From: Lantana camara
Taxonomy: Eukaryota > Streptophyta > Magnoliopsida > Lamiales > Verbenaceae
Direction of reading: 5' to 3'
Length of the DNA: 64,000 bases
Assembly: GCA_037501455.1 (NCBI GenBank)
Contig: CM074857.1
Location: forward strand, 33,934,001 to 33,998,000
How positions within the stretch are numbered: the first letter of the stretch is position 1; each line of letters starts with the position of its first letter. Shown piece after piece: positions 1 to 58,135 of the stretch. The position numbers and the translations under genes are program-made. Below the pieces are notes generated by a model. The model saw only the letters and a program-made list of their open reading frames with translations. It was not told the origin of the DNA and did not search any database.

Positions 1-1288
1 GAGTAACTCCCGTTACCGCTTAGAAGAACAGATTCAGTAACCCCCGTGACCAGAGGCAGGAGCAGTGCTTTGGCGAGAGAGGAGGGGTAACGGTCGTTAC
101 CCCAGGATAGAAGAAAAGTGGTAACGCCCATTACCACTAATAAAAGCGTTATGGCGATTTCAAGCTGTAACGGGCGTTAACGATATATGCACATGGATGG
201 GTAACGCCCGTTACCAAGAGTCGGCGAGAAACAATTAGGGTTGCTATTTAAGTGTGTTTTGGAGTCTTTTTGAGAGAGCTTTTCTTACGGGTTGTGACCT
301 GGGGTTTGAAGAGAAGACATAGAGTTTGAAGGAGTTTTTCAGAGAATTCGCGAAGACAAAAGGATTGATTTCTTAGAACGATTTTTAGTTTTATTATTTC
401 TTTAATTATCAAACTAATTCCTTTAAGTTTAGTTTTCGTACGTCAGATTCATTTTTCCAGGCTTTTACTGAATGTTTATGAGTTTGCTTTTGAGATTTTG
501 TTTAGAGTTGATGAACATGAATTTCTTTAATGCAATTTCCTTTAGTTTTATGAGTTTTGCTTTAATTATGAGTAGCTAATTCTCTACGGCTAGGGGAGTG
601 ATGATGAATGCATGATAAGTGTTCGATATGATGCTTGAATGACTTGTGTTAATTTTTAGTTTGAAAACGGGTTTGAATTGACTTGCGATGGCTTGATCAC
701 CCTTAGCATGTTTTATAATTGCCTATAGATTGAGATATTGATGGTAATTTAGATTGTTTTCATAACTTGTAAGTTGTAGAATATAAAGAGATTTGGTTCT
801 AGCTTATACAATAATAATCTTATTCTATGCCTAGCCGCTAGAATACTGAATTGCACTAGTCTTGTTCATATGGTTTAATTAACTATTGGTGATTGTGAGA
901 GCAACATTGAACACTAATTAAGCACTTGGTTACACCTTGAGAGAGGGTAATACAAGTATAAGTGACTAGGTTGTAGAATTACACTTGTCAGACGAGTATT
1001 ATACTGACTCTTGATTGTATGATTCATTACTTTCCCCTACCTGCTTAGTTTACTGAAGTTAATTGAAATGTGTTTTAGTATTACTTGCGTTTAATTCTAG
1101 TTAATTGTTAATTCTGTTTTTAGTAGATTAATAGATAACAACCACTTGATTTCGTTCGGTCTTTAGATTAGAGAAGAATACAGAGTAGTGATTGATTTCC
1201 CTTCCCTGTGGGTACGATCCTGTTGTGCTACGAGTATGTTAGTGTACACTTGCACGATTGGTTTTAACTTGAGTAGAACATAACTCAT
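1..1288 (+). mobile_element. 3' part of a large LTR, lineage uncertain (Tat/Athila-like end)
   Basis: The LTR start lies outside the window. A TATA-like TATTTAA (245-251) is followed by a non-coding leader. The stretch around 1195-1288, with its GTGGGTACGATCC-type sequence and end in ATAACTCATCA, resembles the 3' portion of Tat/Athila LTRs; this is recall of family appearance, not a search result. It breaks off directly against a minus-strand copia reverse transcriptase at about 1289. No coding potential is seen. The upstream (U3) part carries the palindrome array at 3-214. Confidence 0.5.
3..214. repeat. Array of six 14-bp palindromes, GTAAC-GCCC-GTTAC type
   Basis: Copies start at 3, 37, 87, 121, 167 and 201, giving distances of 34, 50, 34, 46 and 34, that is three pairs. 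The best copy is GTAACGCCCGTTAC at 201-214; the copy at 167 is its exact reverse complement in the core (GGGC). The array lies just upstream of the TATA-like element, so in this element it is in the putative U3 and not in an intron. The same motif recurs in element B. Confidence 0.85.
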
Positions 1289-2207
1289 CAACAATCTTCC
1301 ACCAATTTTGCTCAGCGAGGAAAATCATCAACCTTATAGTCTCCAACCGAGCAACCGGAGCAAACACCTCATCGTACTCGATATCTGCTCTTTGACTATA
1401 TCCTTTCTCCACCAATCTCGCTTTGTATCTCTCAATTTCTCATTTGTCATTTTGCTTTGCCTTATACACCCACATCACACCTATTGCTTTGTTTCCCTTG
1501 GGTAATGAGGTAAGTTGCCACGTGTTATTCTTCTCAATGGCCTTGATCTCTTCCTCCATTGAATTTTTCCAATTTTTGTCTTACATTGCCTCCTGAAAGT
1601 ATAGTGGTTCTGAATCAGCAAAAAGACAGAATAAGGAGAGACCGTTTTGCCTTTTGGTGGCATCATAGTTATCCTTCAAGTTCCTTAAATGTGGTGTCCT
1701 TGAGCTTGAACTTTCTGATTCTTCATTATTTGTTCTTCGGGAAGATGGTGGAGTTACGAGCTCTTGTCCAACATCTACTGCATACTTTCATCAACAAATT
1801 AAGGTTGTAGATTGTAGTTTCCACTCCCAAGCACATTCTTCATCGAATTGAACATCACGGATAATAATTATCTTCTTGTTGCTTAGATTATGTAATTTGT
1901 AGCCTTTGGAACTCTCACAATACCTAATAAAGACTAGTTTTGTGCCTTTATCATCGAGCTTATTTCTCCTTATATCTGGTACATGTGTATAGGCCAAACT
2001 CCGAAAAGGTGCGAGACACCTGGATTTCTTCCACTCTATACTTCTTATGATGTCATTCCCCACACACTTCTTGTCGGAGATCGGGCATCAGGTACACTAC
2101 GGTGGCTACGGCTTCTGCCCAAAACTCTTTTGGCATATTCTTGCTCTTGAGCATACTCCTGGTTATGTCAAGGACAGTCCTGTTCTTTCTCTCCGACACT
2201 CCGTTTT
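1289..2207 (-). pseudogene. Ty1/copia pol remnant: integrase C-terminal part, then start of reverse transcriptase
   Basis: Read on the minus strand from 2207, the sequence encodes the end of a copia integrase core (GVSERKNRT, then MLKSKNMPKEFWAEAV). It continues into the family-typical AYTHVPDIRRNKLDDKGTK and GYKLHNL segments (about 2000-1850). At about 1570-1289 it gives the N-terminal reverse-transcriptase region (MWVYK, then EYDEVFAPVARLETIR). Several stops and frameshifts interrupt it, so no protein can be made. It is cut on the left by the LTR at 1-1288 and entered on the right by LTR G at 2208. Confidence 0.8.
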
Positions 2208-4640
2208 TGTAGTACCCCAAGCGGCGGGCACCACATCTCCCATATTAGAGTCTGACACGTGTTACGAAATAAAAAGTCCGCACACACGCCAAACAATAGC
2301 TAACAGGAGACAAACAAAACCACACCCTCGCTAGGTGGTCTACACCCTCAAACAGAGTGCGCATCAATTAAACATACAAGTGCGGAAGCGATTAAGCAAA
2401 ATAACATAAACAATTCAACAAGCATATAAATCATCCGTACAAATCATTTACATACTTGCCTGCCACAGGTTAAAAGAATAGATCATTATTGACAAGGTCA
2501 AACTAAAAAAAGTATCGTAAGTACAAAATGTAAATCAAGTTACAAATGAAATGCAGACTCGAGCTACGCTAAAAGTAAGATTCTAAAGAAAAATTTGTCT
2601 CCTAGCATGAACCAAAGACCTGTACCTGCAATTCAAAGACAAGGGGGAAAGAGAAGACAACGAGGAGGGGTCAGTCCTAACGACTCGTGAGGGGCTAACA
2701 CAAGTACCCATACATATATATAAGAGCAAAGCATATATCAAAGCCAAAAGTTCATGAACCGGGGGATGGTTTTTTCAATCTAAAATATTTTTCTCGTGAT
2801 AATAGACATATGAGTGAGTTTAGGGCCGAAGGCCAAAACAACCAAGTTTTAGTAATTAGAAATCCATTCCTATTTCACAAACCAAACGAATCAACCTAAC
2901 TTGACGAATATGAGTTCTCCAACCAAACTCCTCAAATTCAAATATACTAAACATAATCAAACAAATAAACAAACCTCTTCTTCCAAATGATAGAAGGGGA
3001 ATGCCTCCCCTCTCCATCGGTTCAAAGTTTAAAGTTCACATGAGTCGGGGTTGAATCACTTCCCTGCATCTTCGACAGGGTTACCACCGGCTCAAGAAAA
3101 CCCACTTTGCCCTTGACCTTCCGAGGTTGGACAAATCCTCTCAAATGGAAACGTGCACGGTTAGTGCCCGACGATCCCATGGTCGTCTCGGGTGCCCCTT
3201 ACCCACATCTGCAGGGCCCAAACAAACGGGACAAAGCATACAGACAAAACCTATCTTTCAAGGTCAAAGCTCACTTTAAACGTACACACACCCCAACCCT
3301 TTTTCAAAACAAACAAGAAAATAGTTTACGTATACATAAAGGCGTTTTCAAGACTTATATAGCAAATGGAACAAGTCCCAAAGTACATATTCATCACTTA
3401 TCTATAGATGTTATACTTAGGTTGCATGTGGGCTCATAACATATTTAGGGTTGTAGGTCGTAATAACTAAAAGAAAGAAAACCTCACCTTATCAAACGTA
3501 GTCGGGTAAAAGAGAATCAAACAACGCCTACGGAGAGACCTCATCACGAACTGGATGCTCCTCTAAACAAAGCAAACACCAAAATACACACTTAGACTCA
3601 ATATAAATCATAGAGACGATCGGCGAATGCGTATGAATGCAAATGATGCAATGTAAGTCTTATACGTTTAACACTTAAATAAATAGAAGCACCTAACATG
3701 TTTTCATACAATAACATAATACAACATATCATATCATATCATATCATATGCATACATAAGTTTAAAACACCTTAGGATTAGGATCAGGGAGGGAAAAGGT
3801 GAAAAAAACAAGTTAACGGACGAAATGCATCACGAACATGGCTCTGAATGGCCGTTTAGCACAAATCAAGCACCACCATGAACAGTAGTTCATGGTAGCA
3901 GCGCCCCGAACGCAACCTAGTGAATGGCCATTCCCAAGCTCAAACCTTGGGCCATGAACGGCCGCTCTTAGGTCCAGAGATTGGCTTCCAAACCTGCACA
4001 AAACGCTGGAATTCGAGAAGGAAAAGCAAAGGCAACGCAGCCACAACAACATCAAAGCATCAACATGTTTCATACATAATCTAACCTTTAAATAAGGTTT
4101 AAGGATCCTTTAAGCAAATTTAGCCTTTTAATCACATCATTAGCTCAATTAATCAAGTGTTTAGCAAAACACTATTAATATATATTGGAGCTCATTAAAT
4201 GGATTTCTTGAATACTTCAACCATCTAGCCAAGGGCAACAATAAATGCATCATAAACCTTCAAATATACAATATATATCAAATTGAATGTATATAATCCA
4301 TCACATAAGTCATGCTTTTAACACTATTGATCATCTTCTTCATTCATCAACAAAACATGGATTCCGAGGAGAGAAAGTGTATGAGAAGAAAGAGCACATC
4401 AAGGATAGTCGACATCTTACCTCGGATCGTCGGATAAGTGAATAGAGAAGACAAACTTGAGCTTTCAAGGCTTGAGGGAGCTAGGACTTGAAGAAATCTC
4501 CTTCTCTCTCTTTATCTATGTGTTGATCGATCAAATGGGGAAGAAAATACGGATAGGGTTTGGTAAAAGGGGTAACACAAGTAACTCGGCCCATTCAGAT
4601 CGAATTTTAAGTCAAAAGGGGGTTTAAACGGTTTAAGAAA
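2208..4640 (-). mobile_element. LTR 'G' of a Ty3/gypsy chromovirus, upstream end truncated
   Basis: The plus-strand left end TGTAGTACCCC is the reverse of a typical chromovirus LTR end (GGGGTACTACA). The layout on the minus strand matches the other LTRs here: a leader with purine tracts, a splice-donor-like CCGAG|GTAAG at 4420, a palindrome array (3845-3968), the AGTC/GACT hairpin followed by ACCCC near 2660-2685, then the LTR end. The expected TGTAAC start on the right is absent and copia sequence begins at about 4640, so the boundary is approximate. An (ATATC)n tract lies at 3726-3750. It is a solo or truncated LTR with no internal domain. Confidence 0.7.
3845..3968. repeat. Array of four 14-bp palindromes, TGAAC-GGCC-GTTCA type
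   Basis: Copies start at 3845, 3879, 3921 and 3955 (distances 34, 42, 34). Examples are TGAATGGCCGTTTA, TGAACAGTAGTTCA and TGAATGGCCATTCC. In LTR orientation the array begins 450 nt downstream of the donor-like site at 4420. Confidence 0.8.
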
Positions 4641-6118
4641 AACACAAGACTAGTACCGTTGGATTGCAAAGGCATCTACAGATACCTAGGATTAACCCAA
4701 GTAGTTAAATCTGAAGTATCTGATCCTATTACTATGATGAAACCGTACAAGATATAGACGCTGACCGTTGGGTTAGAGCCATGGAATCTGAATTAGATTT
4801 AATGTATTCTAATAAAGTCTGGGAACTTGTAGATGCATCTGAGAGCATGAAACCTATTGAATGCAAATTGGTCTACAAGAGAAAAAGGGGAGTGGATAGA
4901 AAGGTTGAGACCTTTGAAGCAAGGTTTGTGGCAAAGGGTTATACCCAGAAAGAAGGTATCGATTACGATGAAACCTTCTCGCCTGTAGCAATGATTAAGT
5001 CCATAAGAATTTTCCTTTCCATTCCCTCTCATTTTGATTATAAGATTTTGCAAATGGATGTAAAGAGTGCCTTCTTGAATGGGTACCTTCAAGAAAAAAT
5101 ATACATGGCTCAACCTGAAGGGTTTATAGCCAGAAATCAGGAGCATGTGGTATGCAAGCTTAATAGATCCATTTATAGTCTTAAGCAAGTGTCTAGATCA
5201 TGGAACATCAGATTTAACGAAGTAATTAAATCCTTTGAATTTATACAATTACCTGATGAACCTTATGTGTACAAGAGACATCATAATAGTATTGTAACAT
5301 TTTTAGTTTTATACGTAGACAATATTCTGCTCATTGGGAATGATACAGGAATATTGTCAGCAGTCAAGATTTGGTTATCAAATCAGTTTGACATGAAAGA
5401 CCTATATGAAGCCAGTTATATTCTAGGGATCAAACTTTGTCGTGGTCGTAAGAATAAAATGATTGGTTTATCACAAGCAACATATATAGATAAGATATTG
5501 GCAAGATATAACATGGCGAATTCCAAGAAAGGTTCATTATCTTTCAGACATGGAGTTCATCTGTCTCGGGATCAGTATCCCAAGACTCCTGAAGAGACAG
5601 AAGAGATGAAAGATGTTCCGTATGCTTCGACAGTCGGAAGCCTCATGTATGCATGTTATGTACAAGGCCAGATATCTGTTATGTTGTAGGTCTAGTCAGC
5701 AGATATCAGTCAAACAAACCCTGGACCCCAACACTGGATAGTTGTAAAGCATATATTAAAGTACTTGAGAAGGACTCGAGATTATATGCTTATCTATCGC
5801 AGTGATAAGCTCATTCCTATAGGGTACACAGATTCGAATTTTCAATCTGATTTAGATTCTAGGCGTTCAACTGCTGAATACGTGTTTACTTTAGGAGGAG
5901 CAGCCGTGGGTTGGAGGAGTATTAAGCAAACTTACATTGCTGACTCCAGCATATAAGCCGAATACGTGGTAGCTTCAGAAGCAGTCAAAGAAGCATATTG
6001 GTTTCAAAATTTCTTGGTGGATCTAGAAGTCGTCAAGGATGGACTCACACCGATCACATTGTATTATGACAATGCCTGAGCGGTGGCCAACTCCAAGGAA
6101 CCTCAAAGTCATAAATGG
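4640..6118 (+). pseudogene. Ty1/copia pol remnant 'K': reverse transcriptase and RNase H
   Basis: A 302-codon open stretch (4781-5689) is a copia reverse transcriptase: FVAKGYTQKEGIDYDETFSP, then LQMDVKSAFLNGYLQE, then YSLKQVSRSWN. The catalytic YVDD box reads YVDN, so the second aspartate is lost. A stop and frameshift follow at about 5689. RNase H sequence resumes in another frame (5765-6117) with GYTDSNFQSDLDSRRSTAEY, an internal stop at 5954, and DN-AVANSKEP before the LTR. Gag, protease, integrase and the RT start are missing. The wording of the motifs fits the copia superfamily; the lineage is not determined. Confidence 0.9.
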
Positions 6119-6672: not shown

Positions 6673-8898
6673 TGGTAACGCCTCGACCCCGAATGCACTG
6701 ATTCGGGACCCGGTTTGTTACTCGAGTCGAGCTAGTATCAGAGCGGAGATAACAAAATTCTATATTGTAAATGATTTCTAAGTATTACGCAAGTCAAAAT
6801 ATCCGAACAACAGATAGAAAATTATCTAATCAAATATCGACTTTTCCAAAACATAACAAAGCCAGATAAAGTTTAACATAAATAAGATTCCTTCTTAGTT
6901 GGTGCTGACTCCTTCCAAAGCGTTCATTTTCTTACTCCGAAATCAATCACCTATATTATTTGAAGAGCAAAGAAGATAAATGGTAGGGTGAGTCAAACTA
7001 ACTCAGTGAGGTGAGCAAGGGGTTAAGTGATAGCAATATTTTAAGATACGAGATCAAGGTGATAATTAATTTCAAGATACAAGATCAAGTCGAGTGCAAG
7101 AAGATAATAAATTTCAATCAGAATCAGGTCCATCCTTTTATCGCCTTTTTTCGGTTGGCCAAACACTTACAGTCAGTCAGTGTGACTAGCGGGAGCCCCC
7201 CAGGGAACAATACGAACTATAGGATCCTCTATAGCTGCCAGTACAGTACAGTAATTCTCCTTCAGATGGGTAACAGAACAATAAAGAATATCTCAACAAT
7301 CAAGTAGTAATTCAAGTTTGAAAATCAACAATAAGCAAGGATAGTTCAATCAAGCAACAAGGGTTTTGATTAATTCAATTATATCGAAGATAAAGCTGAA
7401 TTTGCTCTCCAACAAGATAGTTATGATAAAGTTCACAGATGAGAAGGTTCGAGAAGCCTCACAAGAGATTCTTGCTTGCTCGTTCGACACTTAAGAATTA
7501 TTTGAATCCTTGCACGTCACCGATAAGTTTATAAATATAACCATGATTATTAATCACTTGAATATTTTAGGTGGCATACTAATTCTTGGATACCTGAAGT
7601 AATTACACTAACAATTACTAACTAAAATCTTCATCCTCTAATAAATCCCCTATAATATTATCTTAACAAACCATTCATTATATATATATATATATTAGAA
7701 TTTCTTAGAACAAGGTATTATTCTTAAATCATGAACATCAATTATATCATTATACTATTAACTAACCTCGGGACGGTCTGTTAGATAAGATATTCTTTAT
7801 ATCAAACAAGCCCTTATTTCCAAAATTAAAATATCTATTAGAATATCTTAATATAAATAATTCCTAATCACCCTATTAATTACATATGTATTATATTTAA
7901 ATTAAGAGGCAATCTCAATTATTCCAGAACAAATAACTTTACGGATATATAATATTTATACAAATTATAAATATATTTAAAAGCCACTAATTTAACCGTT
8001 CTTAATTGTCGAGGTGTTGGATAAATTTTATATTAACAAATTTAGAATTAGGAGGTCAAAACGAATTTTTTGTATTTCAAGGTAGTCGGACCGATGCCGG
8101 AAAGTTGCCGGAAGTTCGGCCTCCGCCGAAGTTTCACCAAAAATTTCAAACAACATATCAATAGATTTGTCTTGACGAGCCAGTTACTATCCTCCAATTA
8201 ATTTTGTAAGAAAACCAATAATAAAAGTTTAATTTTGTAAAAACTCAACAACGTAATCTAAGTTTCAAGTTTTTCTTAAATCTAAATTAAATTCGATTCA
8301 TTCAATATTTCTCAAAATCGATCGCATAACTATATTAATCATGTCAAGAAGTACCTTAAACACTAAAAGGTGATCGGAATTCTCACCGGAAAAGTATCAA
8401 AATGCACAACAATTTTACGGAGTTCCAAAATATACTCTCGACTTGTCGAAACTAAAAGTTGTTTGCGCTATTGCGATCGTCACGTCAAAACGATGAAGAT
8501 GGTATATAAGTTTATAAGATTCGGCTAAGAAATGAGGGAGATTGACATGATTTAAGAAGACGCTATGTAAGCTTTTATATATATATATAATATGGTTGTA
8601 CGTTCTTATGGTTGTATTGCAGCATCTTAAGAGATGAGAAGGGAGCTTTGAAGAAATGTGAGTTTCTTTACAATTCCTAACCTATTTATAGAAATTCTCC
8701 ACCAATCAAATGCATTCTCTAGCCCAATGTTTGTAGAGAAACTAACAACAAATCCTTGGTTTATAGCTTATGGGTTTGAAGAAAACTAACAACTAAGCCT
8801 ATTATTTCAAGCTCATTGTTTTGAAGGTTGATGGTTTCAAGCCCACAACTTTATAATACCATCAAATTATGTGTGCTCATAGTTTGAGCACTAAAACC
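6673..8898 (-). mobile_element. 3' LTR of element D, distal part (continues at 21085-21175)
   Basis: On the minus strand the D LTR starts at 21175 (TGTAACACCCC, right after the polypurine tract), is interrupted by element A, and resumes from 8898 down to about 6673, ending GGCGTTACCA. It carries the same late hairpin as its relatives (TGAGT...ACTCA, about 6985-7003) and AT-rich filler. Part of it (6673-6765 and 8340-8852) is repeated at 36733-37364. An inverted TTCGGC/GCCGAA pair sits near 8125-8145. No coding sequence is seen. Confidence 0.75.
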
Positions 8899-9267
8899 TG
8901 TAGCGCCCCTTAACACTACAACCCCGCACCGTTGTACTTCCCGAGTGGATGTGAGACCTAGCACTCGAGAAATACTCCGGCGAACGGACAAGACTATACA
9001 ATACCAGAGTATGAAATTTAAACGCAACGGAAAATAAACTTGAGCAATATAAGGGGACAATACATGACGAAACACATATTATTAAGTTGGATGAGTAATT
9101 ACAGTGATAAGTCTAAGACCACTACGAAAGTGCTTATTGGAACATGTACATGCACTCTTAATATAATCCTGATTGACTAAGATATGACACCTTAAAGCTT
9201 CAAGATACCTCTAAGGCGTCGCTCCGTGGATTCCTGAAATCATGCATTTTAAAACCGGGCGAGAGGG

Positions 9268-9284
9268 TTAGTCAAAGTGACTAA
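9268..9284 (-). promoter_or_regulatory. Conserved late-LTR hairpin in the A family
   Basis: TTAGTC-AAAGT-GACTAA has 6-bp perfect arms and a 5-nt loop. On the minus strand it is followed by the CCCTC that other families also show. Equivalent hairpins occur in the other gypsy LTRs of the window with different but still complementary arms. Its function is unknown. Confidence 0.6.
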
Positions 9285-10105
9285 GTGAAGAGGGTGTAAT
9301 AAATTATAAGTATAAATATATGTATATATATATTTATATAATCAAGAAGATCTTGATCAAAATATTGGCAATAGGATATAGCAAATAGGGAACGATTCAT
9401 AATATTTGTAAAAATAGGGATAGGGGTAACTTGGAATGTTTGTAGAAATATGAACCGTTCGTAACAAGAACTTTAATGCCCGCAAGCTAGGCCTCTCCAT
9501 CCGTAACTCCTTAAATTATGATAAAATAGTAACGGTGCTGATCAAGACACCGATACTTCAATAAAACCAATATGATAATAACTCCGCTACTCCTTGGTGT
9601 CAATAGGGAAGCCAACCCTAGAGACCATGAACTAGATTCGGGAGGCAGCTATCTCTCCCTCATCCCTTGGCGTGGAGTAACTAACCTCCAGTTAAACCAC
9701 TACCAAGAGGTGGTGGCAGTCCGCAGCACCAACAATACCCTCGGCCCGATACCTTCGGGGTAATTGCTCGCTACGGATACAACCGGGGCCCATAACAGGA
9801 ATCGAGAACAATATTTTGCTAGCATAACCCGGAATCAATATTTTGATAAAATGGACTTGAAATATATAATGTTCTAGGAAAATGTTGATTCCGGCAAGAA
9901 AGTATTTTTCCCTTAAAGAGGGACATTGTAGTACAATAATATATATATATGGTAGTAAATCAAAATGATAGGTAGGCTTGAAAATAGTTTTTATGTAGAT
10001 ACATATGTATAGCATGATTCCAGTTGAAAATAGTTTAACCCTCACCGAGTGTCTTGACGGTCTAGATAAAATCCTTGGGATTCCACTGTTCAATTATATC
10101 CTCGC

Positions 10106-11025
10106 CTGAAAGTAATAACTACTACTGGCTTAGAACTAGGTTCTAATATTCAAATTAATCAATCATACACACCATAAGGTAAACATCATGTAATATGTTA
10201 AAGATTTCCCGGTAAACCCTAAATTTACCCGTTTAAGGGAATTTGATTAATAATTTAGGGTTTACGAGATCTTTAGCTAATCAAATATATATATATACCA
10301 TATGATAATTATAATTATAAGATTTGAAATAAGATTTATGGTTAAATTTGACAATGTAGGTTATCTTTTGAAAATATTACATAGTTTACCGATTTTTGGA
10401 AAATTCGGGGAAAAATCTTTCTTTAAAAATTCCAAAACTCATTTTATAATTATTTTTATAATAATTTCGAAATTAATTGTATTTTGGTTGAACAAAAAGT
10501 GAAAATTACTATTGAAAACATTTACTATTCGATTTCATATGAATTAAACATTTTATAACACAAAATCAACTTCACACACACACACACACATAACTCACGG
10601 CACACACATGCACACACACACATCTAAGAACATTATGAACATGTTCTTGAACTCATTTGAATATTCAAAGAGGGTATGTAACATGTTCTATCATATTCAT
10701 ATTCATAACATAAGATTGAAGCACAATATAGCAAAATATATGAATTCTCTATGAAAAATAATTCTAATTAAATTACTATAGGCATGAATTTAATCAAACA
10801 AGATCATAAGCATTTAAATACATATTCATATTATATCATATCATAATTCATGCATTTAATTAAATAAAATTCCATAATGTACACACATTGTATTTAAACT
10901 AACAATTATGCACATATTTCATAAAATAAATTCTTAAAGCATAATTTAATTAATCCTAGACATGCTACTACTATTATTATACTAAGAACATAATATAAAG
11001 CATGAAATAATAGAAGAAAACATAC
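10106..11025 (-). other. Putative leader intron in the A-family LTR
   Basis: On the minus strand AAG|GTATGTTTTC (donor, 11025) follows the TATA box by about 100 nt. TTACTTTCAG (acceptor, 10106) comes 920 nt later. The same pair is kept in the solo copies (59652 to about 60569; about 41738 to 42601). This is inferred from motifs only; no transcript evidence exists here. Confidence 0.45.
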
Positions 11026-11122
11026 CTTGTAGAAAGAGAGAGGGTTGGGGCGTGAGAATTGGGAGAGAAGAGAATGATTTTTGTGTGTTGATTTGTGAGG
11101 TATAAATGAGGCTTAAAGGGGG

Positions 11123-11130
11123 TATTTATA
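11123..11130 (-). promoter_or_regulatory. TATA box of the A-family LTR
   Basis: The minus strand reads CCTATAAATACCCCCC. The same box is at 41636-41643 and 59546-59553 in the plus-strand solo LTRs. In the 5' LTR of A the box is split by the nested insertion at 16033. Confidence 0.75.
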
Positions 11131-12228
11131 GGTAGTCATGAGGGGTTTCTAAGCAATAAATGAAATTTTATGGGAGATGTGGTTAAATTATATTATGAAC
11201 AAATGCTTGGTAATTACTTAGGAAATGTGGAGAAATTATGCTCATGTAATTAATCCTTCTAGAAGACCATGTGGTCATGGATGATGTCATCTTGAATAAA
11301 AATAAATGTAAAATAATATAAAATTTATTCAAGAGTCGAGAGGTAAAAACTTGAAGTAGTGAATTGATGAAAGAATGAGTGAAAAACGAGCTTCGTTTTG
11401 ATTATAAATGTGAAATATTTATAGTTTTCGTTTATAAATTATGAATATTAAAGATGATGAAAATCATGAGAAAATTATATAAACGAAGCTAGGATAAAGT
11501 TTAGAGTTTGGAAAAATCACCATAATGTAGAGGAAAATTCAAGGATCGTTTCAAGTATAATTTCGACTATTGAATAAAAGCTAATTTGTTCAAAATAAAA
11601 TGATGATTTTTAGAAAGGAAAATATTTATAAAATATGCTATGGCGAGATCGAGTTTTTGGTAAATGCATGAAAATTCATAAAATAATTTAAGGATTGTTT
11701 TGGTTATAATTTTGAATATAAAAAAGTAGATGAGTAGGGATTTATTGATGATCGAATCATAAGCTAGGGTTTTCGCCGGTTTTTGATAATACTAGAGTTA
11801 GAATGGGAATTATGGTTCACAGAGGGTATCACAATCCTCGAAATAATGTGAGGATTCTTTTGGTTACAATATTGGGTAATGAAAGTGCTTCGGGGAAATG
11901 TAGGAATATTTTTGAGCTATAGGGGTATTTTCGTAATTTCCAACCTAAAACTGTAGGAATGGGTTTTGAAGTGTATGAAGGGGTTTTAGGTGCTAGAAGG
12001 GAATGAATATTAGAATTCTAGGATTTTAGGGAAAGAGTTTCGAGATACATGCTAAATAGAAGAAGGAATTAAATTCACGAACTTTTTATTAAATTATAAC
12101 ATATTAAAGCACATAAGTCACATAAAATGCAATGCATGAGAGAATTAACAAAGATCGAGACTATAACCGCTTCCTAAGTTACCCCTTTACTTACCTTTCT
12201 CGACTTGGCCCTGAGTAGGGCTGTTACA

Positions 12229-12242
12229 ATCTTCCCCCCTTT
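12229..12242 (-). other. Polypurine tract of element A
   Basis: The minus strand reads AAAGGGGGGAAGAT directly before the TGTAACAGCC start of the 3' LTR. It would prime plus-strand DNA synthesis. Confidence 0.85.
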
Positions 12243-12427
12243 AAAAGAATCTGTCCTCAGATTCTACTCATGTTTCATAATAGCTTTAGATAATGTTTGT
12301 ATCCTCTATTCATGATAAACTAGTTTCTAAAGGAGAACTTTACTTTAAACACATATGGCAATTGTTCAGATAAGAAATTTAGATGCACACATAAGTGATG
12401 CAATGAATGCGTGGCGCCAGCACCATA

Positions 12428-13513
12428 TTAAGTAGTAACTGGCATGTTTAGAATGTGTACCGTACCCTCATTATTGGCAAGATTTGGTTTCATGTTTCCT
12501 TCCACAGCATAAGCTCGTCCTTTGACCATCGGTCTCCCAGATGTTCCTTCCATAGCCTTCCCTTTATTTCTTGGTTTTGGTCTTTTCGGACAATTTTCTA
12601 TTTGATGATCAGGGTCTCCGCACCATAAACGTGTACCAGCCTTCCTTCGACATTCCTCCTCAGTATGCCCCCGCCTTTGACAGTACTCACAAATAATCTC
12701 TTCCTGAAGTTTTGGTGGTGCCTGTTGGGGCTTGGGCCAGGACTGTACTTGTTTCTTTTCGGAAGTTGACTTAAATGGTTCAGCAGGACGTTTGGATTCC
12801 TGGGATGACTTATAGGGTGGCTCGGAACGATTGTTTGCCAGATGGACTTCCTTATGTGTGGCCTCCGTTTTCATAGTCGTTTCTACAGCCTTAGTGTAGG
12901 TTCCCAATTCAAATGGAGCTAAGGCCCATCGAAGATTGGATCTAAGACCATCAACAAACCGTTTAATTTTGCGGCGTTCATCATGTAGGATATGTGGGGC
13001 ATACTGGATTAGCCTAACAAACTGAGCTTCATATTCGGCCACCGGTGCTTTGCCTTGAACTAGATTCATAAACTCTGCTTCTCGGGCATCCCTAGTCACC
13101 TGGGGAATATACTTGTCGTAGAACACTCTCACAAAGTCATTCCACCCATGATTCACCTGATTTTCTGCCCAGACTCGTTTTGTATATTTCCACCAACTTA
13201 GGGCCGCTTCTTCTAGCATGAAGACAGCATACTGAACTCTTTCAGGTTCTTCAGGACTAATACCCATTGCTTCAAAAATTTTCTCAAGACTTGCTATCCA
13301 ATTTTCAGCCTTTACATCATTGGGTTCTCCGAAGAACTTAGGCGGATCCATCCGAAGAAACTTTTCTAAGGACTTCTCATTGTTACCTTTTGATCCATTA
13401 GCGCAAGTTTGCACTATCTCTTTTAAAGCATCTACTAGCTCAGAATTTCCTCCGGCTGAGGACATATCTTCTCTTGGTGGAGTGCTTTCTTGGGCGGTTC
13501 TTCGGGGAGACAT
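12428..13513 (-). CDS. gag: Gag polyprotein of element A (intact)
   Basis: An uninterrupted 361-residue frame. I place the start at MSPRRTAQ (13513), which matches how related gags begin; an upstream in-frame ATG at 13582 would add 23 residues without gag character. Residues about 60-240 form the retrotransposon gag (capsid-like) domain, with AENWIASLEKIFEAM, WWKYTKRVWAENQVN and ERRKIKRFVDGL. A basic, proline-rich linker leads to two zinc knuckles: CEYCQRRGHTEEEC is complete (CX2CX4HX4C), while the second (LWCGDPDHQIENC) lacks its first cysteine, which reads arginine. The frame ends soon after, where protease would begin in an autonomous element. Gag would form the virus-like particle and package the RNA. 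It is the only intact protein-coding gene in the window. Confidence 0.9.
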   Translation of the reverse strand: MSPRRTAQESTPPREDMSSAGGNSELVDALKEIVQTCANGSKGNNEKSLEKFLRMDPPKFFGEPNDVKAENWIASLEKIFEAMGISPEEPERVQYAVFMLEEAALSWWKYTKRVWAENQVNHGWNDFVRVFYDKYIPQVTRDAREAEFMNLVQGKAPVAEYEAQFVRLIQYAPHILHDERRKIKRFVDGLRSNLRWALAPFELGTYTKAVETTMKTEATHKEVHLANNRSEPPYKSSQESKRPAEPFKSTSEKKQVQSWPKPQQAPPKLQEEIICEYCQRRGHTEEECRRKAGTRLWCGDPDHQIENCPKRPKPRNKGKAMEGTSGRPMVKGRAYAVEGNMKPNLANNEGTVHILNMPVTT

Positions 13514-13783
13514 TATGAGCTGTAATGTACTTGGAGAGAGAATATGATGCATGATGGTTAAGAATGACTTGCAGATAATCACTTAGGTAGAAATTTTCCA
13601 AGTTGTAACAATCAATACACGTAATATCACATAAATCGTAGCACAGATAAGGCATATAAAGACACAGAAGAATAACATGTTAACTTACGGTCCTACTGGT
13701 ATCTTGAAGCAACCTTAACACATAGTGCAACAGACAAGAGGATAGAGCACCCTTTCAGTTAAGTCTCTTCTTAACTTAACCGG

Positions 13784-13795
13784 GCTCTGATACCA
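13784..13795 (-). other. Primer-binding site of element A (initiator tRNA-Met)
   Basis: The minus strand reads TGGTATCAGAGC, the standard plant PBS complementary to the 3' end of initiator tRNA-Met. It lies 7 nt inside the end of the 5' LTR. Confidence 0.9.
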
Positions 13796-16032
13796 CTTTA
13801 GCTATAGCGCCCCTTAACACTACAACCCCGCACCGTTGTACTTCCCGAGTGGATGTGAGACCTAGCACTCGAGAAATACTCCGGCGAACGGACAAGACTA
13901 TACAATACCAGAGTATGAAATTTAAACGCAACGAAAAATAAACGTGAGCAATATAAGGGGACAATACATGACGAAACACATATTATTAAGTTGGATGAGT
14001 AATTACAGTGATAAGTCTAAGACCACTACGAGAGTGCTTATTGCAACATGTACATGCACTCTTAATATAATCCTGATTGACTAAGATATGACACCTTAAA
14101 GCTTCAAGATACCTCTAAGGCATCGCTCCGTGGATTCCTAAAATCATGCATTTTAAAACCGGGCGAGAGGGTTAGTCAAAGTGACTAAGTGAAGGGGGTG
14201 TAATAAATTATAAGTATAAATATATGTATATATATATTTATATAATCAAGAAGATCTTGATCAAAATATTGGCAATAGGATATAGCAAATAGGGAACGGT
14301 TCATAATATTTGTAAAAATAGGGATAGGGGTAACTTGGAATGTTTGTAGAAATATGAACCGTTCGTAACAAGAACTTTAATGCCCGCAAGCTAAGCCTCT
14401 CCATCCGTAACTCCTTAAATTATGATAAAATAGTAACGGTGTTGATCAAGACACCGATACTTCAATAAAACCAATATGATAATAACTCCGCTACTCCTTG
14501 GTGTCAATAGGAAGCCAACCCTAGAGACCATGAACTAGATTCGGGAGGTAGCTATCTCTCCCTCATCCCTTGGCGTGGAGTAACTAACCTCCAGTTAAAC
14601 CACTACCAAGAGGTGGTGGCAGTCCGCAGCACCAACAATACCCTCGGCCCGATACCTTCCGGGTAATTGCTCGCTACGGATACAGCCGGGGCCCATAACA
14701 GGAATCGAGAACAATATTTTGCTTGCATAACCCGGAATCAATATTTTGATAAAATGGACTTGAAATATATAATGTTCTAGGAAAACGTTGATTCCGGCAA
14801 GAAAGTATTTTTCCCTTAAGAGGGACATTATAGTACAATAATATATATATATGGTAGTAAATCAAAATGATAGGTAGGCTTGAAAATAGTTTTTATATAG
14901 ATACATATGTATAGCATGATTCCAGTTGAAAATAGTTTAACCCTCACCGAGTGTCTTGACGGTCTAGACAAAATCCTTGGGATTCCACTGTTCAATTATA
15001 TCCTCGCCTGAAAGTAATAACTACTACTGGCTTAGAACTAGGTTCTAATATTCAAATTAATCAATCATACACACCATAAGGTAAACATCATGTAATATGT
15101 TAAAGATTTCCCAGTAAACCCTAAATTTACCCGTTTAAGGGAATTTGATTAATAATTTAGGGTTTACGAGATCTTTAGCTAATCAAATATATATATATAC
15201 CATATGATAATTATAATTATAAGATTTGAAATAAGATTTATGGTTAAATTTGACAATGTAGGTTATCTTTTGAAAATATTACATAGTTTACCGATTTTTG
15301 GAAAATTCGGGGAAAAATCTTTCTTTAAAAATTCCAAAACTCATTTTATAATTATTTTTATAATAATTTCGAAATTAATTGTATTTTGGTTGAACAAAAA
15401 GTGAAAATTACTATTGAAAACATTTACTATTCGATTTCATATGAATTAAACATTTTATAACACAAAATCAACTTCACACACACACACACACATAACTCAC
15501 GGCACACACATGCACACACACACATCTAAGAACATTATGAACATGTTCTTGAACTCATTTGAATATTCAAAGAGGGTATGTAACATGTTTTATCATATTC
15601 ATATTCATAACATAAGATTGAAGCACAATATAGCAAATATATATGAATTCTCTATGAAAAATAATTCTAATTAAATTACTATAGGCATGAATTTAATCAA
15701 ACAAGATCATAAGCATTTAAATACATATTCATATTATATCATATCATAATTCATGCATTTAATTAAATAAAATTCCATAATGTACACACATTGTATTTAA
15801 ACTAACAATTATGCACATATTTCATAAAATAAATTCTTAAAGCATAATTTAATTAATCCTAGACATGCTACTATTATTATTATACTAAGAACATAATATA
15901 AAGCATGAAATAATAGAAGAAAACATACCTTGTAGAAAGAGAGAGGGTTGGGGCGTGAGAATTGGGAGAGAAGAGAATGATTTTTGTGTGTTGATTTGTG
16001 AGGTATAAATGAGGCTTAAGGGGGGTATTTAT

Positions 16033-17083
16033 TGTAGCACCCCGACGGGAAGGCGCCGCATCCCCCGCACTATGAGCCCGATCCACACATGAAATGGAGA
16101 GTTCATACATGAACCAAGCTCACAACGAACGGGGACACACTCACTCACTAGGCTAGGCGGGAGCTAAAACTTCAAGACCAAATAAACAAATACCAAAAGG
16201 AATAGCATATGCGGAAGCAATGCTACTAAATTCATTCCAATATAATAGAACAACGGGTTCAATAAACATAATTACCTAGTCCTGCAAATTCGACATACAT
16301 CATAACATACTCATAATCATACAATGCTCATAATTAACGAATTACAATGAGGGTGTGTGACAAGACTCAACTTGACAAAAAAAAACTTGACCACACGATA
16401 CCCCACCTAGCACTCCAACCTGCAAGAAAGCTGAAAACAATCCGGGTTCAGTCTATAGGAGACTGGTGGGTATAAAATGGGCATAATATAATAATACTTT
16501 GGAATTGAAACATACACATGCAAGCCCTAATCCCATAGAAGTTTGATAAGAATTTCCCAAGCGGGCAAAGCAAAGAAAACATCAATGGGATTAAAACTAT
16601 CATATTCATTCATAATTTAAACATAGGGTTTAAGGCCCGGCGATTAGGCGTGCATCATCTCCAACCTGCTCCTCGTGTGTGCATATCAAAACATACTTTT
16701 CATTAACGATCATACATATCCATTTCATAGTCATAATCATAATCAAAATCATAATCATACATACAAATTCCAACCTTCTTCCTCCGGTGGTGAACGGGCT
16801 AGCAAGACCCGGCACCTCATACATAATGGCTAGAGAGGTTCATGAGTCCTCAAAAGCCCGACTAGCGTTTTCCCGTCAAAACTCCTGACGAGATCCGTTT
16901 CGACGTTAATATTTGTTGGAACTAGTGCAAGGGATCCCCGTCGGCCCTTGCCTCCCCGGTTAGCCACAATACACTAAGTTCCGGGCCCGTGAACATAACA
17001 TACATGCACCTCGCCATAACATAAGGTCGGATTTCATAAAAGAAAGGCTTAACAATGGAAAATCATAGACACCTTTGAAAGTC

Positions 17084-43400: not shown

Positions 43401-43752
43401 CTTTTAATTCATGATTTCAGGAATCTACACAGCGACGCCTTAGAGGTATCTTGAAGCTTTAAGGTGTTACATTCCAGTTATTAGAGTAATCACGAGTGCA
43501 TGTACATCTCTTAATAAGCACTCTTCTGTGAAGTTAGAACTTTCGTTGTAATTACTTGTCCAACTTAATAATATGTGTTTCGTGATATATTGTCCCCTTT
43601 ATTTGCTCATGTTTATTTTTCTGTTGCATTTAAATTTCATACTCTGCTATGGTATAGTCTTGTCCGTTCGCCGGAGTATTTCTCGAGTGCCAGGCCTCAC
43701 ATCGACTCGGGAAGTACAACGGTGCGGGGTTGTAGTGTTAAGGGGTGCTACA
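40491..43752 (+). mobile_element. A-type solo LTR in the 5' LTR of B
   Basis: The TSD CCAGG is at 40486-40490 and 43753-43757; the empty site is visible in the other B LTR near 53455. It runs TGTAACAGCCC to GGTGCTACA, 3262 bp. TATA box at 41636, donor-like AAAG|GTATG near 41738, late hairpin at 43375-43390 with one arm mismatch. No interior remains. Confidence 0.92.
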
Positions 43753-48975: not shown

Positions 48976-51910
48976 TGTAACACCCCAAACGGGGTGCCAC
49001 ATCCCACGCACCGAGACCCGACCCCCATTTGAAATGGGAAGTCCATACACATGCCAAGTCACGGCGAACGGGGACTTACTCACTCGCTATGCTAGGCGGG
49101 AGCTAAAACCTTGAGACCAAATAAACAATTCAATAGGATAAGATACACTTGTGGAAGCATAGCATATAATCAGTTATCAATTCAGGTAGCAATTGACGGG
49201 TTCAATCTATCCCTAGAAGCCTGTCCTGAATCAGTAAAACATAATATTAGCATTTATACATGTTTCAATATGGCCTCATCAATTTACAATGTGCGTGTGC
49301 AAAGACTCTGAGTTAACCACAGGACTTGACAAACACAAAATCCCGCCTAGCACTCCAATCTGCAGCCAACAAGGTAACAAGAAATAGAAGAAGAGAGGGT
49401 CAGTCAAGCAACTGGTGAGGTGGATAGAATATAATAGATATATACACGATGCAATAAGTAGAGATGTACAATACAATAACAAGCTGCCTCGATCCGATAT
49501 AGCCTCAATTTTCAATAATAAACTATCATTTCCTTTAGTCTCAATTTTCAAGAACAAGACAATCATTTACTTTCAAGAACAATGGCGTATACCAGATTAA
49601 GAGTTTCAAGCAATCAGTGGGTACCGAGTTATACCCTTTCTCCAACCTTTACTCCATAGGACAAGAACAAGATCAAGAATAAGAACAATAACAAGAAACC
49701 ATCCTTTTTCCTCCAGGTGACGAAAGAGGTAGCTAACCCCTAACCATCCAAGAACACTCGAGTCATAACCCATTTCGATACTATGCTCCTTCGGCATCCA
49801 GTGCCGGTCACAGGCGACATGTAGTATCAAATACCTCTGATGATAGCACAGTCCTCCGTAGAGGTCTCGAGATAGATTTACTGTCAGCCCTTGCTTTCCC
49901 GGCTTCTCTTCCCAAGTTGCCTTGGGCCCTTACCCCACCGAAGCATGCGAGTGGGGCCCCATCGAAACATGCGAATGGGGATTTTCAAAAACAAGCACTC
50001 GGTTATGTAAAACATGCAAGAGACTTTCCATTTTCACAATTAAAGTCATGAACACACGCATAAGAATCTATATGTATAACCCATTTGTTACTTGAAATCC
50101 ATTTTCAATAAAAATCGAGAATATAGTAGTCAATCACGTATTTATTAGATAGGTATACATATATGTATAATAATTCACATGCGGGGAAACAATTGCAATT
50201 CATGTAGGCTATATGGGTATAGGTTGTTGGTTACAGCAAGAAGATAAACCTCACCTCTATCGATAAAGAAAGTAAGGATACAACTATGGAGCTTGCTCCT
50301 CGTCAACGGGAAGATGATCTGTGCAACAAGGACAAGTGTACGTGAGACACGACTCGTGTGAACCATTTAAGATGCATGGCAAAGTCATGATCAATATATT
50401 ATGTCATAACAATTAAGGAATGTCAAATAAGAGCATAATTATCAATAAACCAAGTATATAACTCATATAAGTCACATAAGGAAGCTAAGGAGTGAAAGAA
50501 ATGCAATAAGAGAGGTTTTGGTGAAGTTTGGCAAAATTGGACAGTTTTAGAAAATACTCAAGCTGTAGGAAAACTGGAATATCTTGAGTTCTAGAAGTTG
50601 GAATTAAGTTTTTCTTGTTGGGTTTGAAACTAGAGAAAAATACCTTTCCGATGATATATGGATCGTTTTCTAGTTCAAAATGAGGAGAAAATGGCATAAG
50701 CTTGAAGTTAGGCGAGTGCAGTTTTCCAGGAAAGTGGTGACACGTAAATGAATTGATCATAACTCAGAATTGGGAAATGATATTGAGATTATTCTAAGTG
50801 GAGATTTTTCTAGACTTCAAGAGGTTTCCAATGGTTTAAAAATCAGGTCAATCGGAGTTCGGATGAGGGAGTACCGGGCCAGGAAAAATACAAGGCAAAA
50901 TCTACCCGGCCGGGGAAAAAGAATACAGAAATTTCTCTGGACTAAAGTACCCGCCCGGGTACTTTTTCTTCATGAATTTACCCGCCCGGGTAGAGTGTTT
51001 TCAGCTGAAAACCGAGAAGAAACAGGGGAAAACAGGGGATGAAAGGAAAAGGGAGCGAAGTGGTCACCTAAGCATCCAATTTTGCAAAGATATATTTAAA
51101 ATCAAGTGTATTCATTCTATCACACACCAAAGCACACTTAGGAACATTCAAGGAGCAAATATACACCAAGAACTCATGCTTAATATTCATCATCTTCAAC
51201 CTCAAAACCCCATATATTTCATGATATTCAACTTCCATACACTTCAAGAATTCAAGCAAGGTTTCAAGTTCAATGATCATGGTCATGCTTCTAACCACAA
51301 ATAATCGAGGAATTGCATAACAAATCTCAAACCCTACTTAAATCATGACATCAAGAATTCATCAAAGTCTCAAGCTCTACCTTGAATGAAAGAAAAGATG
51401 GGGAAGATGAAGTGATGATGATGATGCTCCAAATTATGCAATTTCCCCTTGAAATCAAGCTTGAAAATTGATGAGATCCTTCCTTCCTTCTTTGGTGTTT
51501 TGATCGTGAGATGTGTGTGTGTGAGTGTGTGAGATTTTTGATGAAATATGATTAATGAAATGGAATGGAAGAGATAAAAGATATTTACATGATTCTTCCA
51601 AGACATTGCATGACTCATCACAATTTGCTCTTAAGTCCCCAAATTACTTAAGTTCTTACAATGAAATTCTATCTCATGTAATATGATCAATTAAGTCCAA
51701 GAATGGTTCATGCAATTTGGTCCACATATTTAAGAAAATGATCAATTAAGGACATAAAGGCAATTAAGTAACGTTCGCCAATTAATTCACGTATCAATTA
51801 GAAATAATTCATGTAATAATTCTCAAGTTGGCATAAATTTCACATAAACATATAAGAATATAATTCATACAATGTCATGTAATGTATAAAGAAAAAATCG
51901 GGGCGTTACA
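48976..51910 (-). mobile_element. Solo LTR 'F', chromovirus-type
   Basis: The TSD TTGTG is at 48971-48975 and 51911-51915. On the minus strand it runs from TGTAACGCCCC (51910) to GGGGTGTTACA (48976), 2935 bp. Layout: leader with CATCATCATC-type repeats, a donor-like CAAG|GTAGAG (51380), a palindrome array (50992-50872), the CAGT/ACTG hairpin (49414-49401) and the LTR end. No interior. Confidence 0.9.
50872..50992. repeat. Array of four palindromes, TACCC-GCCC-GGGTA type
   Basis: Copies start at 50872, 50903, 50948 and 50979 (31, 45, 31). The last two are both TACCCGCCCGGGTA. Confidence 0.85.
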
Positions 51911-51976: not shown

Positions 51977-52098
51977 TTACAGTCCGATACCCCTTTTGTG
52001 ATTTAAATTGTTAACGTCCGTTACCTTGGCTCTTGGAGCGCCTGTTGCCGTTAACGCCCATTAACCATTTTTTCCTTGAAAGTGTTAACCCCCGTTAC
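51977..52098. repeat. Palindrome array in the 3' LTR of B
   Basis: Three clear copies at 52011, 52051 and 52085 (40, 34). At 51977, where the first copy should be, the sequence is TTACAGTCCGATAC, a corrupted copy that keeps the 34-bp phase. Confidence 0.8.
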
Positions 52099-54896: not shown

Positions 54897-56435
54897 TGGG
54901 ATTAATGCCCTGAAAATCCAATTATATTGTAAATATTTTGAATTAATGAAACTGAAATTATTACAAGTTATGAATATTTTATGTATTTAATAAATAATGA
55001 CATGTGATGGTATTTTTATATGAAATGTGTGTCATAGAAAAAGACTTTAAATACCCGAAATCAAGTTCTAGTCGGTATGAAAAGAAAATATTATTATCGA
55101 GACTATAATGTGTTATATAAGACGATTAGTCGATTTGCATTGGACTCATAATCCTGGCAGTGTTTCGACTTTAGGCATGTAATATTAATCACTGTGATTT
55201 ACTCAGAAGTGAGGTCTTGGTAACGTGTGGCCAAAATAATTTGTACATTTGGTGATTGTATGAAATGTGCTAAAAAGGAATAATGATCGAGGAATCTGTG
55301 GCCTTGATGGAAGGTTAAAAGATATCCTTGAAATAGATTTGCAAAAGTTTAAATGAAAACCTTGGCCAAAGTACTTTTTGTGTGCGTCACCGAAGTTGTA
55401 TGTGTTTCACATACATGGAATTTGGACTTAAGGCGAATCAAGATATTTTAGATTGGAAGTGAAAAATAAATGATAGTAGTATTGATTTATTTTTCATAGA
55501 CATTTGTACGGAGTAAAATGCAAAATTATTCTAGATCGAGAAATTTGTGAATAATTTAATTAATTTTAGAGTGAAAAAATATTTATTTAGTGAAATTAAA
55601 TATTGTTAAACGGTAATCAATTATTGTCATGAGATGATAATAGATTGACCCATTTTGTCCTAAAACTAATTAGTCCTGCAGATCCCTCTACAAGCCCCAA
55701 CGAATACCTAAGAGAAAATATTAAAATGAGAGAGAGAAATAAAATTTCAAAATGTTTTAAAATAGGCAAAATAAATCTAATTTCAAAGAGTTGGAAATGT
55801 CCGAAATCTTATTTTGGAGAGAATAAAAATTTTCAAAATTAAAAAAAAAAAAAATCAGTATTTGATGATGTGGCAGCTGAATAAATCAAATTTCAAAGAG
55901 TTGGAAATGCCCGAAATCTTATTTTGGAGAAAATAAATTTTTTTAAAAATTTCAAAAAAAAAAAAAATCGATTTTTCATGACGTGGCAGCTGACCTGTCA
56001 CGCCATGTCAGCAGGCCAGGCACCATCTGGCGCTGATTGGGCGCCGTGTGGCATGCCTCATGGGCGGATAGGATCGCGCCATGTCTCGTGGGTCAGCGGC
56101 CCAGATCTGGTTTGAAAATAGACCGAGTCAATGTACGGGTTCAGATATGGGTCGGGCATGGCCGGGTCGGTTTGAACGACCCATACGCGTGGCATGATAA
56201 AAGGTTGCCAAGTGGCGAAAGGTCCAGACCACTTTGAACTGACCGGTCCATTTCTGAACTGGTCTGGAGATTGAATCGTCCGTTCGAACCGGACCGGCCT
56301 GACACGCGACAGCTGCTTGTGGATGCATGCGTTTCACACATGCCAAGCACACAACCTTCACATGGGCGGTGCGTGTGGGCCCCGTTTGGCCCGTGCTTGG
56401 CGCCGTCGTACTCGTGGTGGCATGGGCTTCACGAC
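54897..56435 (+). mobile_element. 3' LTR of copia I, cut by LTR E
   Basis: It starts TGGGATTAATGCCC. An AT-rich first kilobase includes a tandem duplication (about 55779-55892 and 55889-55975, each ending in an A run). Then comes a sharply GC-rich block (about 55985-56435) with GTGGCAGCTGAC and clustered GACCGGTCC/GGTCCAGACC words. It ends where LTR E begins at 56436. Confidence 0.65.
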
Positions 56436-56802: not shown

Positions 56803-56852
<50 letters not shown>

Positions 56853-58135
56853 CATAATATCTACTTTATCACTTTATACATATAAATGATATATCTATAC
56901 ATATATTACATACATAATATCTTATACATTAATTTACAAGAACTCACACACAAACACATACAAAATCTCTAACACTTTTTCTTTCACTCTTCACACACAC
57001 CTTCCTTTGATTCAAGAACAAGAAGGAGGAATCATCATTCCATCATCAAGTTTTCATCATCTCCACCATATCATCATCTCCATTTCTTCCTTTTCATTTC
57101 AAGGTTGGTATATATGTATATATATTTGTGTGTGAATGTATTGAATAGTAAGGGTTTGGAGATTTGAAATTGTGTTTATGTTCTTAAGCATGAATATATG
57201 AATATATATCAGTGTATCCTTGAATTTATTGCATGAATACCTTGGTTGTTGGTTTAATAAATGATATGGTATGAATGGGATTTTAAATGTTGAGTTTTGA
57301 TTGATATAAGTGCCTATATATGTGTTTTATTTTGCCTAATTGATAAATAAGATGTGTATATGTGTTATAAACTTGTATTGGTTTGCATTTTCATGTTTAA
57401 ACTTGATTTGGTTGGTTTTGTTGCTTGATCCGAAAGTCCCATGCCATGCCCTATTTTTCGTGCTTTAGTTCCTGGTCGGGAGCCTTTTTAGTTCATTTTT
57501 TTTATCCTGGCCGGGATCCCCCTAAAAATTGAAATATTTTGCTCTCGTTAAAACTGTCCAGGCTGGGACACTTTTTAGTTAATTTTTTATCCCGGCCGGG
57601 ACCCCTTACAGATTTTTAAATCCAACCTAGGATCCCAGCCTGGTGAATTTTATCTCGGCCGGGATTGTGTAAAAATTTTATAAACTTTGCTCTCGTTAAA
57701 AACGTCCAGGCCGGGACACTTTTCAGTTCAATTTCAGTCCCCCGGGAGGGTGTGGCAGGAGGGTTACGGGATAGGGTGTCCCGGCCGGGACCCCTTTTGA
57801 GCTAAATTTAATCCTGGTCGGGATGGAAGCCTGGGAGTTCATTTTGTGCATTTTTATTCAATTCATGTCTTTTATTCGTTTACTCTCGATTCATGGCTTC
57901 TTGTGAATTAATTATGAATTGTCCATAATTGTCTCATTGATTTTAACATCTCATGACATGCATTCATATGTCATTTTTCCATTAATTGGCTCATATGTCT
58001 AGAGTCTCATGTACCCTCGTGTTTCTTGTAAATAGTTCGATCAGGTTGTGGAGGAGCAAGGTCCTTAGGCTTCTCTTTCCCGTTCTCTTATCAAGGTCAG
58101 GTTTTATTCGTAGTTAATTAGAACCCTAATATCTT
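56436..58135 (+). mobile_element. LTR 'E', chromovirus-type, 3' end missing
   Basis: It starts TGTGACGCCCCGAG, close to the C LTR start. Two (TA)n tracts (56740-56780, 56806-56850), a leader with CATCATC repeats, a donor-like CAAG|GTTGG (57104), a large palindrome array (57469-57824) and an acceptor region follow. From about 58135 the sequence switches to the minus-strand LTR of H, so the last part of E is lost. The junction is approximate. Confidence 0.75.
57469..57824. repeat. Array of about ten palindromes, GTCCC-GGCC-GGGAC type
   Basis: Copies start at 57469, 57504, 57556, 57589, 57620 (weak), 57652, 57704, 57737, 57778 and 57811, with an extra weak one at 57632. They form five pairs with inner distances 35, 33, 32, 33 and 33. 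The best copy is GTCCCGGCCGGGAC at 57778-57791. Confidence 0.85.

Follow-up and report, generated by a model that had tools for sequence, protein, structure and literature searches.

Arrays of paired palindromic dyads in long terminal repeats of retrotransposons from a 64-kb window of the Lantana camara genome

The 64-kb Lantana camara window studied here (the whole stretch of DNA analysed) is a nest of retrotransposons, the long terminal repeats (LTRs) of which were located by self-comparison. Eight arrays of paired 14-bp palindromes (dyads) were found in it. The arrays fall into six families, X, B, C, E, F and G′ (the latter termed G in the first-pass annotation), and in families B and C the array is present in both LTR copies. 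The dyads are symmetrical, keep a strict geometry, and have arms that are alike within an array and differ between families. With somewhat better than even confidence, we interpret the arrays as cis-regulatory DNA sites of a dimeric protein, the target of which differs between the families. The analysis covers one window and six families, and the term family-specific refers here to one or two copies per family.

Geometry of the dyad arrays

The most economical description of the unit is a 6-bp arm, a 2-bp centre and a second 6-bp arm, NN[AC][AC]CG-NN-CG[GT][GT]NN. The first-pass annotation had proposed 5-bp arms around a 4-bp core; the length of 14 bp stands, but the 6 + 2 + 6 division fits better than 5 + 4 + 5, and five dyads are perfect as then defined. 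The inner end [AC][AC]CG is common to all five arm types, GTAACG (TTAACG for part of C), TGAACG, GACACG, TACCCG and GTCCCG, and an intact dyad contains two CG dinucleotides. The centres are CC, GG, GC, GT, AC, CT or TC. Both CC and GG centres occur inside one array in X and in B, as expected of an orientation-free site.

Array X (positions 3–214, strand undefined) consists of six dyads at 3, 37, 87, 121, 167 and 201 with the arm GTAACG and start-to-start distances of 34-50-34-46-34 bp. It lies at the window edge and is cut by it, and is counted as a putative LTR array only; the six array families claimed earlier are all present, the LTR nature of X being putative. Four dyads with the arm GACACG, spaced 34-40-34, make up each array of B, at 24427–24548 in the 5′ LTR copy and at 31620–31741 in the 3′ copy (both plus strand). 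The same 34-40-34 spacing is found in C (plus strand; arm GTAACG or TTAACG), where the 5′ copy at 39008–39129 has four dyads and the 3′ copy at 51977–52098 four sites, the first of them badly decayed. Two arrays of four dyads each run on the minus strand: G′ at 3845–3968, with the arm TGAACG and a spacing of 34-42-34, and F at 50872–50992, where a solo LTR has TACCCG arms spaced 31-45-31. Array E (57469–57824, plus strand) has eight recognisable dyads with the arm GTCCCG and a variant ATCC..GGAT, in pairs 33–35 bp apart, and has been partly enlarged through a duplication of ~148 bp. The spacings reported earlier for X, B, C, G and F all agree with these values. The five pairs reported for E are reached only if decayed partners are counted, the eight recognisable sites giving pair distances of 35, 33 and 33 bp.

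The arrays were evaluated with a four-site scan, in which all 6-base arms containing two or more G/C were tried in a pair-gap-pair layout with a maximum score of 48; the pair distances of 31, 33 and 34 bp were picked after the arrays had been seen. The scan confirmed the paired arrays of all six families, including B and C twice: the eight arrays scored 39–46, and one additional AT-rich tract scored 36. Peaks in 15 dinucleotide shuffles, run with distances of 31–35 bp and a slightly wider gap range, were 33–35 of 48, and three further shuffles under the four-site scan gave nothing at or above 35. Pairs of similar dyads 31–35 bp apart numbered 14, versus a mean of 0.35 and a maximum of 2 in 100 local dinucleotide shuffles. 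When the layout was freed (centre of 0–6 bp, pair distance of 24–45 bp), scores of at least 39 appeared only at even centres, which share the same symmetry axis, and at distances of 31, 33 and 34 bp. The majority of the single dyads are imperfect, with five perfect, as would suit a chance product or artefact of AT-rich, repeat-dense sequence; however, the shuffled-sequence check called for in the first-pass annotation never gave the observed scores (100, 3 and 15 shuffles), and such an origin is extremely improbable.

The four-site scan revealed no array in the 3.3-kb LTR family (40491–43752 and others) or in LTR H (16033–19979). A looser cluster score alone fails to separate G′ (score 7) from the array-less H (score 6).

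Arm conservation and position of the arrays in the LTR

Within an array, the arms are 67–87% identical, while the adjoining 17 bp on either side are 26–40% identical (six of the eight E sites were used, 57652 and 57704 being left out). The arms are therefore alike, as had been claimed, but uniform only approximately. They also differ between families, although not to the extent of one arm per family: the arms of X and C are nearly identical, which leaves five arm types across six families. Since the arms are alike and the adjoining 17 bp unlike, it is the dyads that appear to be kept and not the surrounding segment; the dyads would either have outlasted their surroundings after duplication or have converged. 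The spacers within an array are unrelated to one another, so that most of the arrays cannot be called tandem repeats. Conservation of spacers between families was considered and rejected: a match of 13/19 between C and E proved not to be general, and 22 of 280 comparisons, with X, F and G′ each compared in either orientation, reached p < 0.05, near the null rate. Excluding the decayed site that opens the 3′ array of C, 37 sites contain 46 asymmetric pairs; half of these (23) are at the two innermost positions, in part as C-to-T or G-to-A.

Comparison of related LTRs places different arms at corresponding positions. Up to the array start, the LTRs of B and E share 62% identity, and after it 66–72%, yet their arms differ; both arrays begin just past the end of the aligned 62%-identical stretch. 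Between C and F, 63 of 176 positions are identical across the array (25–42% per block), versus 323 of 461 downstream in eight 60-base blocks (61–80% per block).

Five families (B, C, E, F, G′) have a donor-like AAG/GT or GAG/GT at a comparable LTR position. The earlier statement that their arrays start about 285–450 nt after a donor-like AG/GT holds for the distance, but better donor matches mostly exist elsewhere in the same LTRs. In LTR B, the sequence CAAG/GTTTGT at 24025–24034 (plus strand), ~400 nt before the array, does not have a top donor score; the similar sites are at ~57104 in E and ~38720 in C (plus strand) and at ~51382 in F and ~4422 in G′ (minus strand). After the array, the same five families feature an exon-like block, composed of a pyrimidine tract with an AG acceptor, 57–77 nt and a donor. 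In the 3′ LTR copy of B it occupies 31992–32057 (plus strand; pyrimidine tract-CAG, 60 nt, GTGAGG), and its counterparts are at 58036–58101 in E, 40228–40310 in C, 50320–50250 in F and 3565–3483 in G′ (the latter two on the minus strand). The donor of the block is GTGAGG in one B copy, F and G′, GTCAGG in E, and GTGGGT in C and H. The block recurs in the array-less H and, in a weaker form, in the 3.3-kb family. The block motif was chosen by eye, without a chance estimate, and donors were ranked by a simple consensus. The recurrence of the block suggests that the LTR leader of these elements is spliced, and the five arrays possibly lie in an intron of the leader, as they are placed between the donor-like site and the acceptor-bearing block. 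Array X instead lies ahead of a TATA-like box, TATTTAAG, ~30 bp downstream of the array on the plus strand. The exon-like block of B also holds a short inverted repeat, GAGGAGC..GCTCCT, which is imperfect in F and E.

Candidate functions of the arrays

Each array may serve the LTR as a cis-regulatory module, and may be located in the first intron of the transcript made from the retrotransposon. In a dyad, two half-sites of 6 bp (CG[GT][GT]NN outward) would be arranged in inverted orientation, 2 bp apart, as the predicted target of a dimer. Since the dyads of a pair are separated by about three turns of the helix, cooperative binding of two dimers would be possible. One protein family would read every arm version, and its role may be activation of transcription or keeping the LTR from silencing. 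All half-sites of an array differ together between related families, which may reflect a shift of specificity or of paralogue under silencing or inter-family competition. A host transcription factor is favoured as the candidate binder over an element-encoded protein. The earlier proposal that the dyads are recognised by a fast-changing DNA-binding protein agrees best with the strict geometry, the orientation-free sites and the different arms in related LTRs; the accompanying comparison with VANC proteins, discussed below, is weak. GTTAC, reported in PMC4267404 as the core of GT-3 trihelix factors that dimerise, occurs in the arms of X and C, and GT-3 is a putative lead for that one arm type only.

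Several observations weigh against dimeric DNA sites. GTTAC is missing from the other four arm types, and no known factor covers all arms. The steps from pair to pair show no significant helical phasing (p = 0.085). Among the asymmetric pairs, G-T mismatches number 12 versus 6 for A-C, which points, if anything, towards RNA (two-sided binomial about 0.24, hand-calculated). The contrast between C and F exists on the downstream side only, as the upstream flank is as unlike as the array (0.38–0.53 per block); the drop at the array between B and E is weak (85/177, other blocks 0.48–0.73), and block identities of C and G′ show no contrast at the array. Related LTRs do bear different arms at one place, but these values do not support an array that changes faster than both of its flanks.

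The arrays could instead act in RNA, as dimerisation or packaging elements present only in the unspliced transcript, where any self-complementary sequence would suffice and the arms would be free to drift. In retroviral genomic RNA, the palindromes for dimerisation and packaging lie downstream of the splice donor and differ in sequence between lineages, and the arrays resemble them in their lineage-differing sequence; five arrays, located between a donor-like site and an acceptor-like block, may also occupy a similar position. The excess of G-T over A-C and the folding of the array windows of B, F, G′ and X, clearly better than that of the remaining LTR, agree with such a role. However, sense and antisense both fold, and on the sense strand the arrays of C and E are unremarkable; folding was therefore dropped as a discriminator between DNA and RNA. 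In addition, array X is upstream of a TATA-like box, and self-complementary centres were found in only 9 of 36 sites (six of the eight E sites were used in the centre tests), so that 27 of 36 differ in this respect from the retroviral palindromes. The stem-loop pairing of neighbouring copies suggested earlier was not borne out, since complementary centres occurred in 6 of 18 neighbouring pairs, no more than the permutation mean of 5.0 (p = 0.29). Recognition of DNA by a dimer is the simpler reading, and an RNA role is less likely, indeed unlikely in its own right. Another proposal concerns silencing: the palindrome clusters would yield small RNAs, and their symmetry would be kept by template switching during reverse transcription and not by a bound protein. 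Quasi-palindrome correction by template switching can maintain symmetry. The two CG dinucleotides per intact dyad and the concentration of half of the asymmetric pairs at the inner positions, partly as C-to-T or G-to-A, are compatible with this proposal, as is the report in PMC10760457 that palindrome clusters in maize Sirevirus LTRs attract small RNAs. Template switching leaves unexplained why arms are alike at separate sites with unrelated spacers, as well as the fixed 31–34 bp spacing and the common [AC][AC]CG grammar, and we regard this explanation as quite unlikely.

An element-encoded anti-silencing protein might bind the array of its own family and co-evolve with it, like the VANC proteins of VANDAL transposons, which are DNA transposons encoding VANC (Hosaka et al. 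2017, PMC5735166; Sasaki et al. 2023, PMC10398659). VANC targets are described as short element-specific motifs clustered in non-coding DNA, quickly diverging (PMC5735166, PMC10398659) and varying between related elements (PMC5735166), and the arrays are likewise family-specific, situated in non-coding DNA and variable between related elements. Array E shows tandem enlargement through its duplication; VANC motifs, among them YAGTATTAY, are reported to form tandem repeats (PMC5735166). Here, in contrast, most arrays lack the structure of a tandem repeat, their spacers being mostly unrelated, and the string “palindrom” does not appear in the main text of PMC5735166. Element B, moreover, yielded no VANC-like gene in a Pfam search, free of a VANC model, that covered 9 of the 18 open pieces of at least 45 amino acids (aa) on the plus strand of its internal region, together with the LTR open reading frames (ORFs), and that gave standard retrotransposon domains only, or nothing exceeding a curated cut-off; its chromodomain piece stops just before the 3′ LTR. 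For the other array families, the window contains incomplete internal regions or none. Antisense ORFs of ~160 aa in the LTRs of B, at 24833–25318 (162 aa) and 32071–32547 (159 aa) on the minus strand, were considered as a hidden DNA-binding gene and rejected: they do not match each other over the full length in one frame, and no homologue was found elsewhere in the window. They are probably due to chance, given the frame shifts between the copies and the absence of a Pfam match. An element-encoded binder of this kind is improbable, and we give it little credence.

Related systems, host elements and significance

The closest known system is the palindromic repeated motifs (RM) of Sirevirus LTRs (Bousios et al. 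2010, PMC2829016). They are short dyads clustered in the upper half of the LTR, element-specific, with a CG-containing shared core and high identity within an element, and a cis-regulatory role has been suggested for them (PMC2829016). The arrays described here are likewise palindromic, element-specific and LTR-clustered (with X in a putative LTR). The differences from the account in PMC2829016 are several. Sireviruses belong to Ty1/copia, whereas element B is a Ty3 chromovirus. Sirevirus RM are present in at least 8 copies per element, whereas one LTR here has 4 (B, C, F, G′), 6 (X) or 8 (E) dyads; four per LTR is the number in four of the six families, and both LTRs of B or C together have 8. 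The Sirevirus core is CGG-CCG, versus [AC]CG-NN-CG[GT] here (ACG-NN-CGT or CCG-NN-CGG), although CGGCCG does occur in E wherever the centre is GC. The position may differ as well: the Sirevirus cluster is just upstream of the TATA box, while here a TATA-like box follows X and the other five arrays follow a donor-like site. The motif section of PMC2829016 gives no counterpart of the paired 31–34 bp spacing. The remark of the first-pass annotation that it knew of no description of the layout calls for qualification: element-specific palindromic LTR clusters are published for Sireviruses (PMC2829016), but in the literature searched they were met neither in Ty3 chromoviruses nor with the paired spacing. 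That search, mostly of titles and abstract beginnings among the matches listed, gave no recognised account of such arrays in Ty3 elements: PMC6911290 deals with insertion targets, the “palindrome” of PMC8282616 refers to LTR ends in the text concerned, and in that of PMC11302176 the word stands only within a reference. Four exact scans of viral contigs for the paired pattern produced one match in total, in a contig (L001) of which a 501-base stretch looked unrelated, and two protein-based scans found no relative.

Element B (23476–33156, plus strand; 5′ boundary approximate) is delimited by an LTR alignment of 23476–25962 with 30714–33156, the 3′ copy starting ~30 bp earlier than the aligned boundary at 30714. 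Its Pfam matches are gag, protease (RVP_2), reverse transcriptase (RVT_1), RNase H, the H2C2 integrase zinc domain, SH3_Tf2-1 and a chromodomain, the last with 24.3 bits, just under the cut-off of 25.1. Element B is assigned to the Ty3 chromoviruses by this set of matches, in which SH3_Tf2-1 and the near-cut-off chromodomain come after the enzyme domains; C, E, F and G′ are placed by LTR similarity alone. The reverse transcriptase of B has matches in Vitis, Tanacetum, Gossypium and others (best 120 of 7981). The LTRs of element C are split by nested insertions, and the solo LTR F (48979–51910, minus strand) sits inside the 3′ LTR of C. LTR G′ (about 2207–4640, minus strand) is weakly similar to LTR C, with the first ~300 bp apparently missing; Ty1/copia pol fragments (retroviral SH3-like, RVT_2) flank this truncated LTR on opposite strands, at 1794–2087 (minus) and 4724–5686 (plus). 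A 110-bp unit is present in two copies at 55770–55993, about 0.5 kb before the E LTR.

The 3.3-kb LTR family was found by self-comparison at 40491–43752, at 58408–61728 and in the element at 8898–21085; LTR H was delimited by the same method. The LTR parts of the element at 8898–21085 are 98.8–99.0% identical, and its internal region is only ~1.6 kb long and contains a gag ORF (12431–13582, minus strand). This element is a recent gag-only derivative, without a dyad array. A tandem ~206-bp unit at 35719–37815, with TGGTATCAGAGC at 35920 and 37536, looks like a small tandem LTR or terminal-repeat retrotransposon in miniature (TRIM) element.

How the long-LTR retrotransposons that fill plant genomes switch on and escape silencing is poorly known. 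A tentative and rather doubtful generalisation would be that plant Ty3 chromoviruses share a code of fixed geometry and changeable letters, in which paired dimer sites 31–34 bp apart, with a constant CG-NN-CG heart, are read by one fast-diversifying protein family, and families diverge by switching all half-sites together, thereby gaining private channels of anti-silencing or activation. If this were true, the geometric code could be scanned for in any plant genome, and the arms would predict which families share a regulator. Palindromic LTR control modules would then extend from Sireviruses to Ty3 chromoviruses, with different site sets occupying one fixed position in related families.

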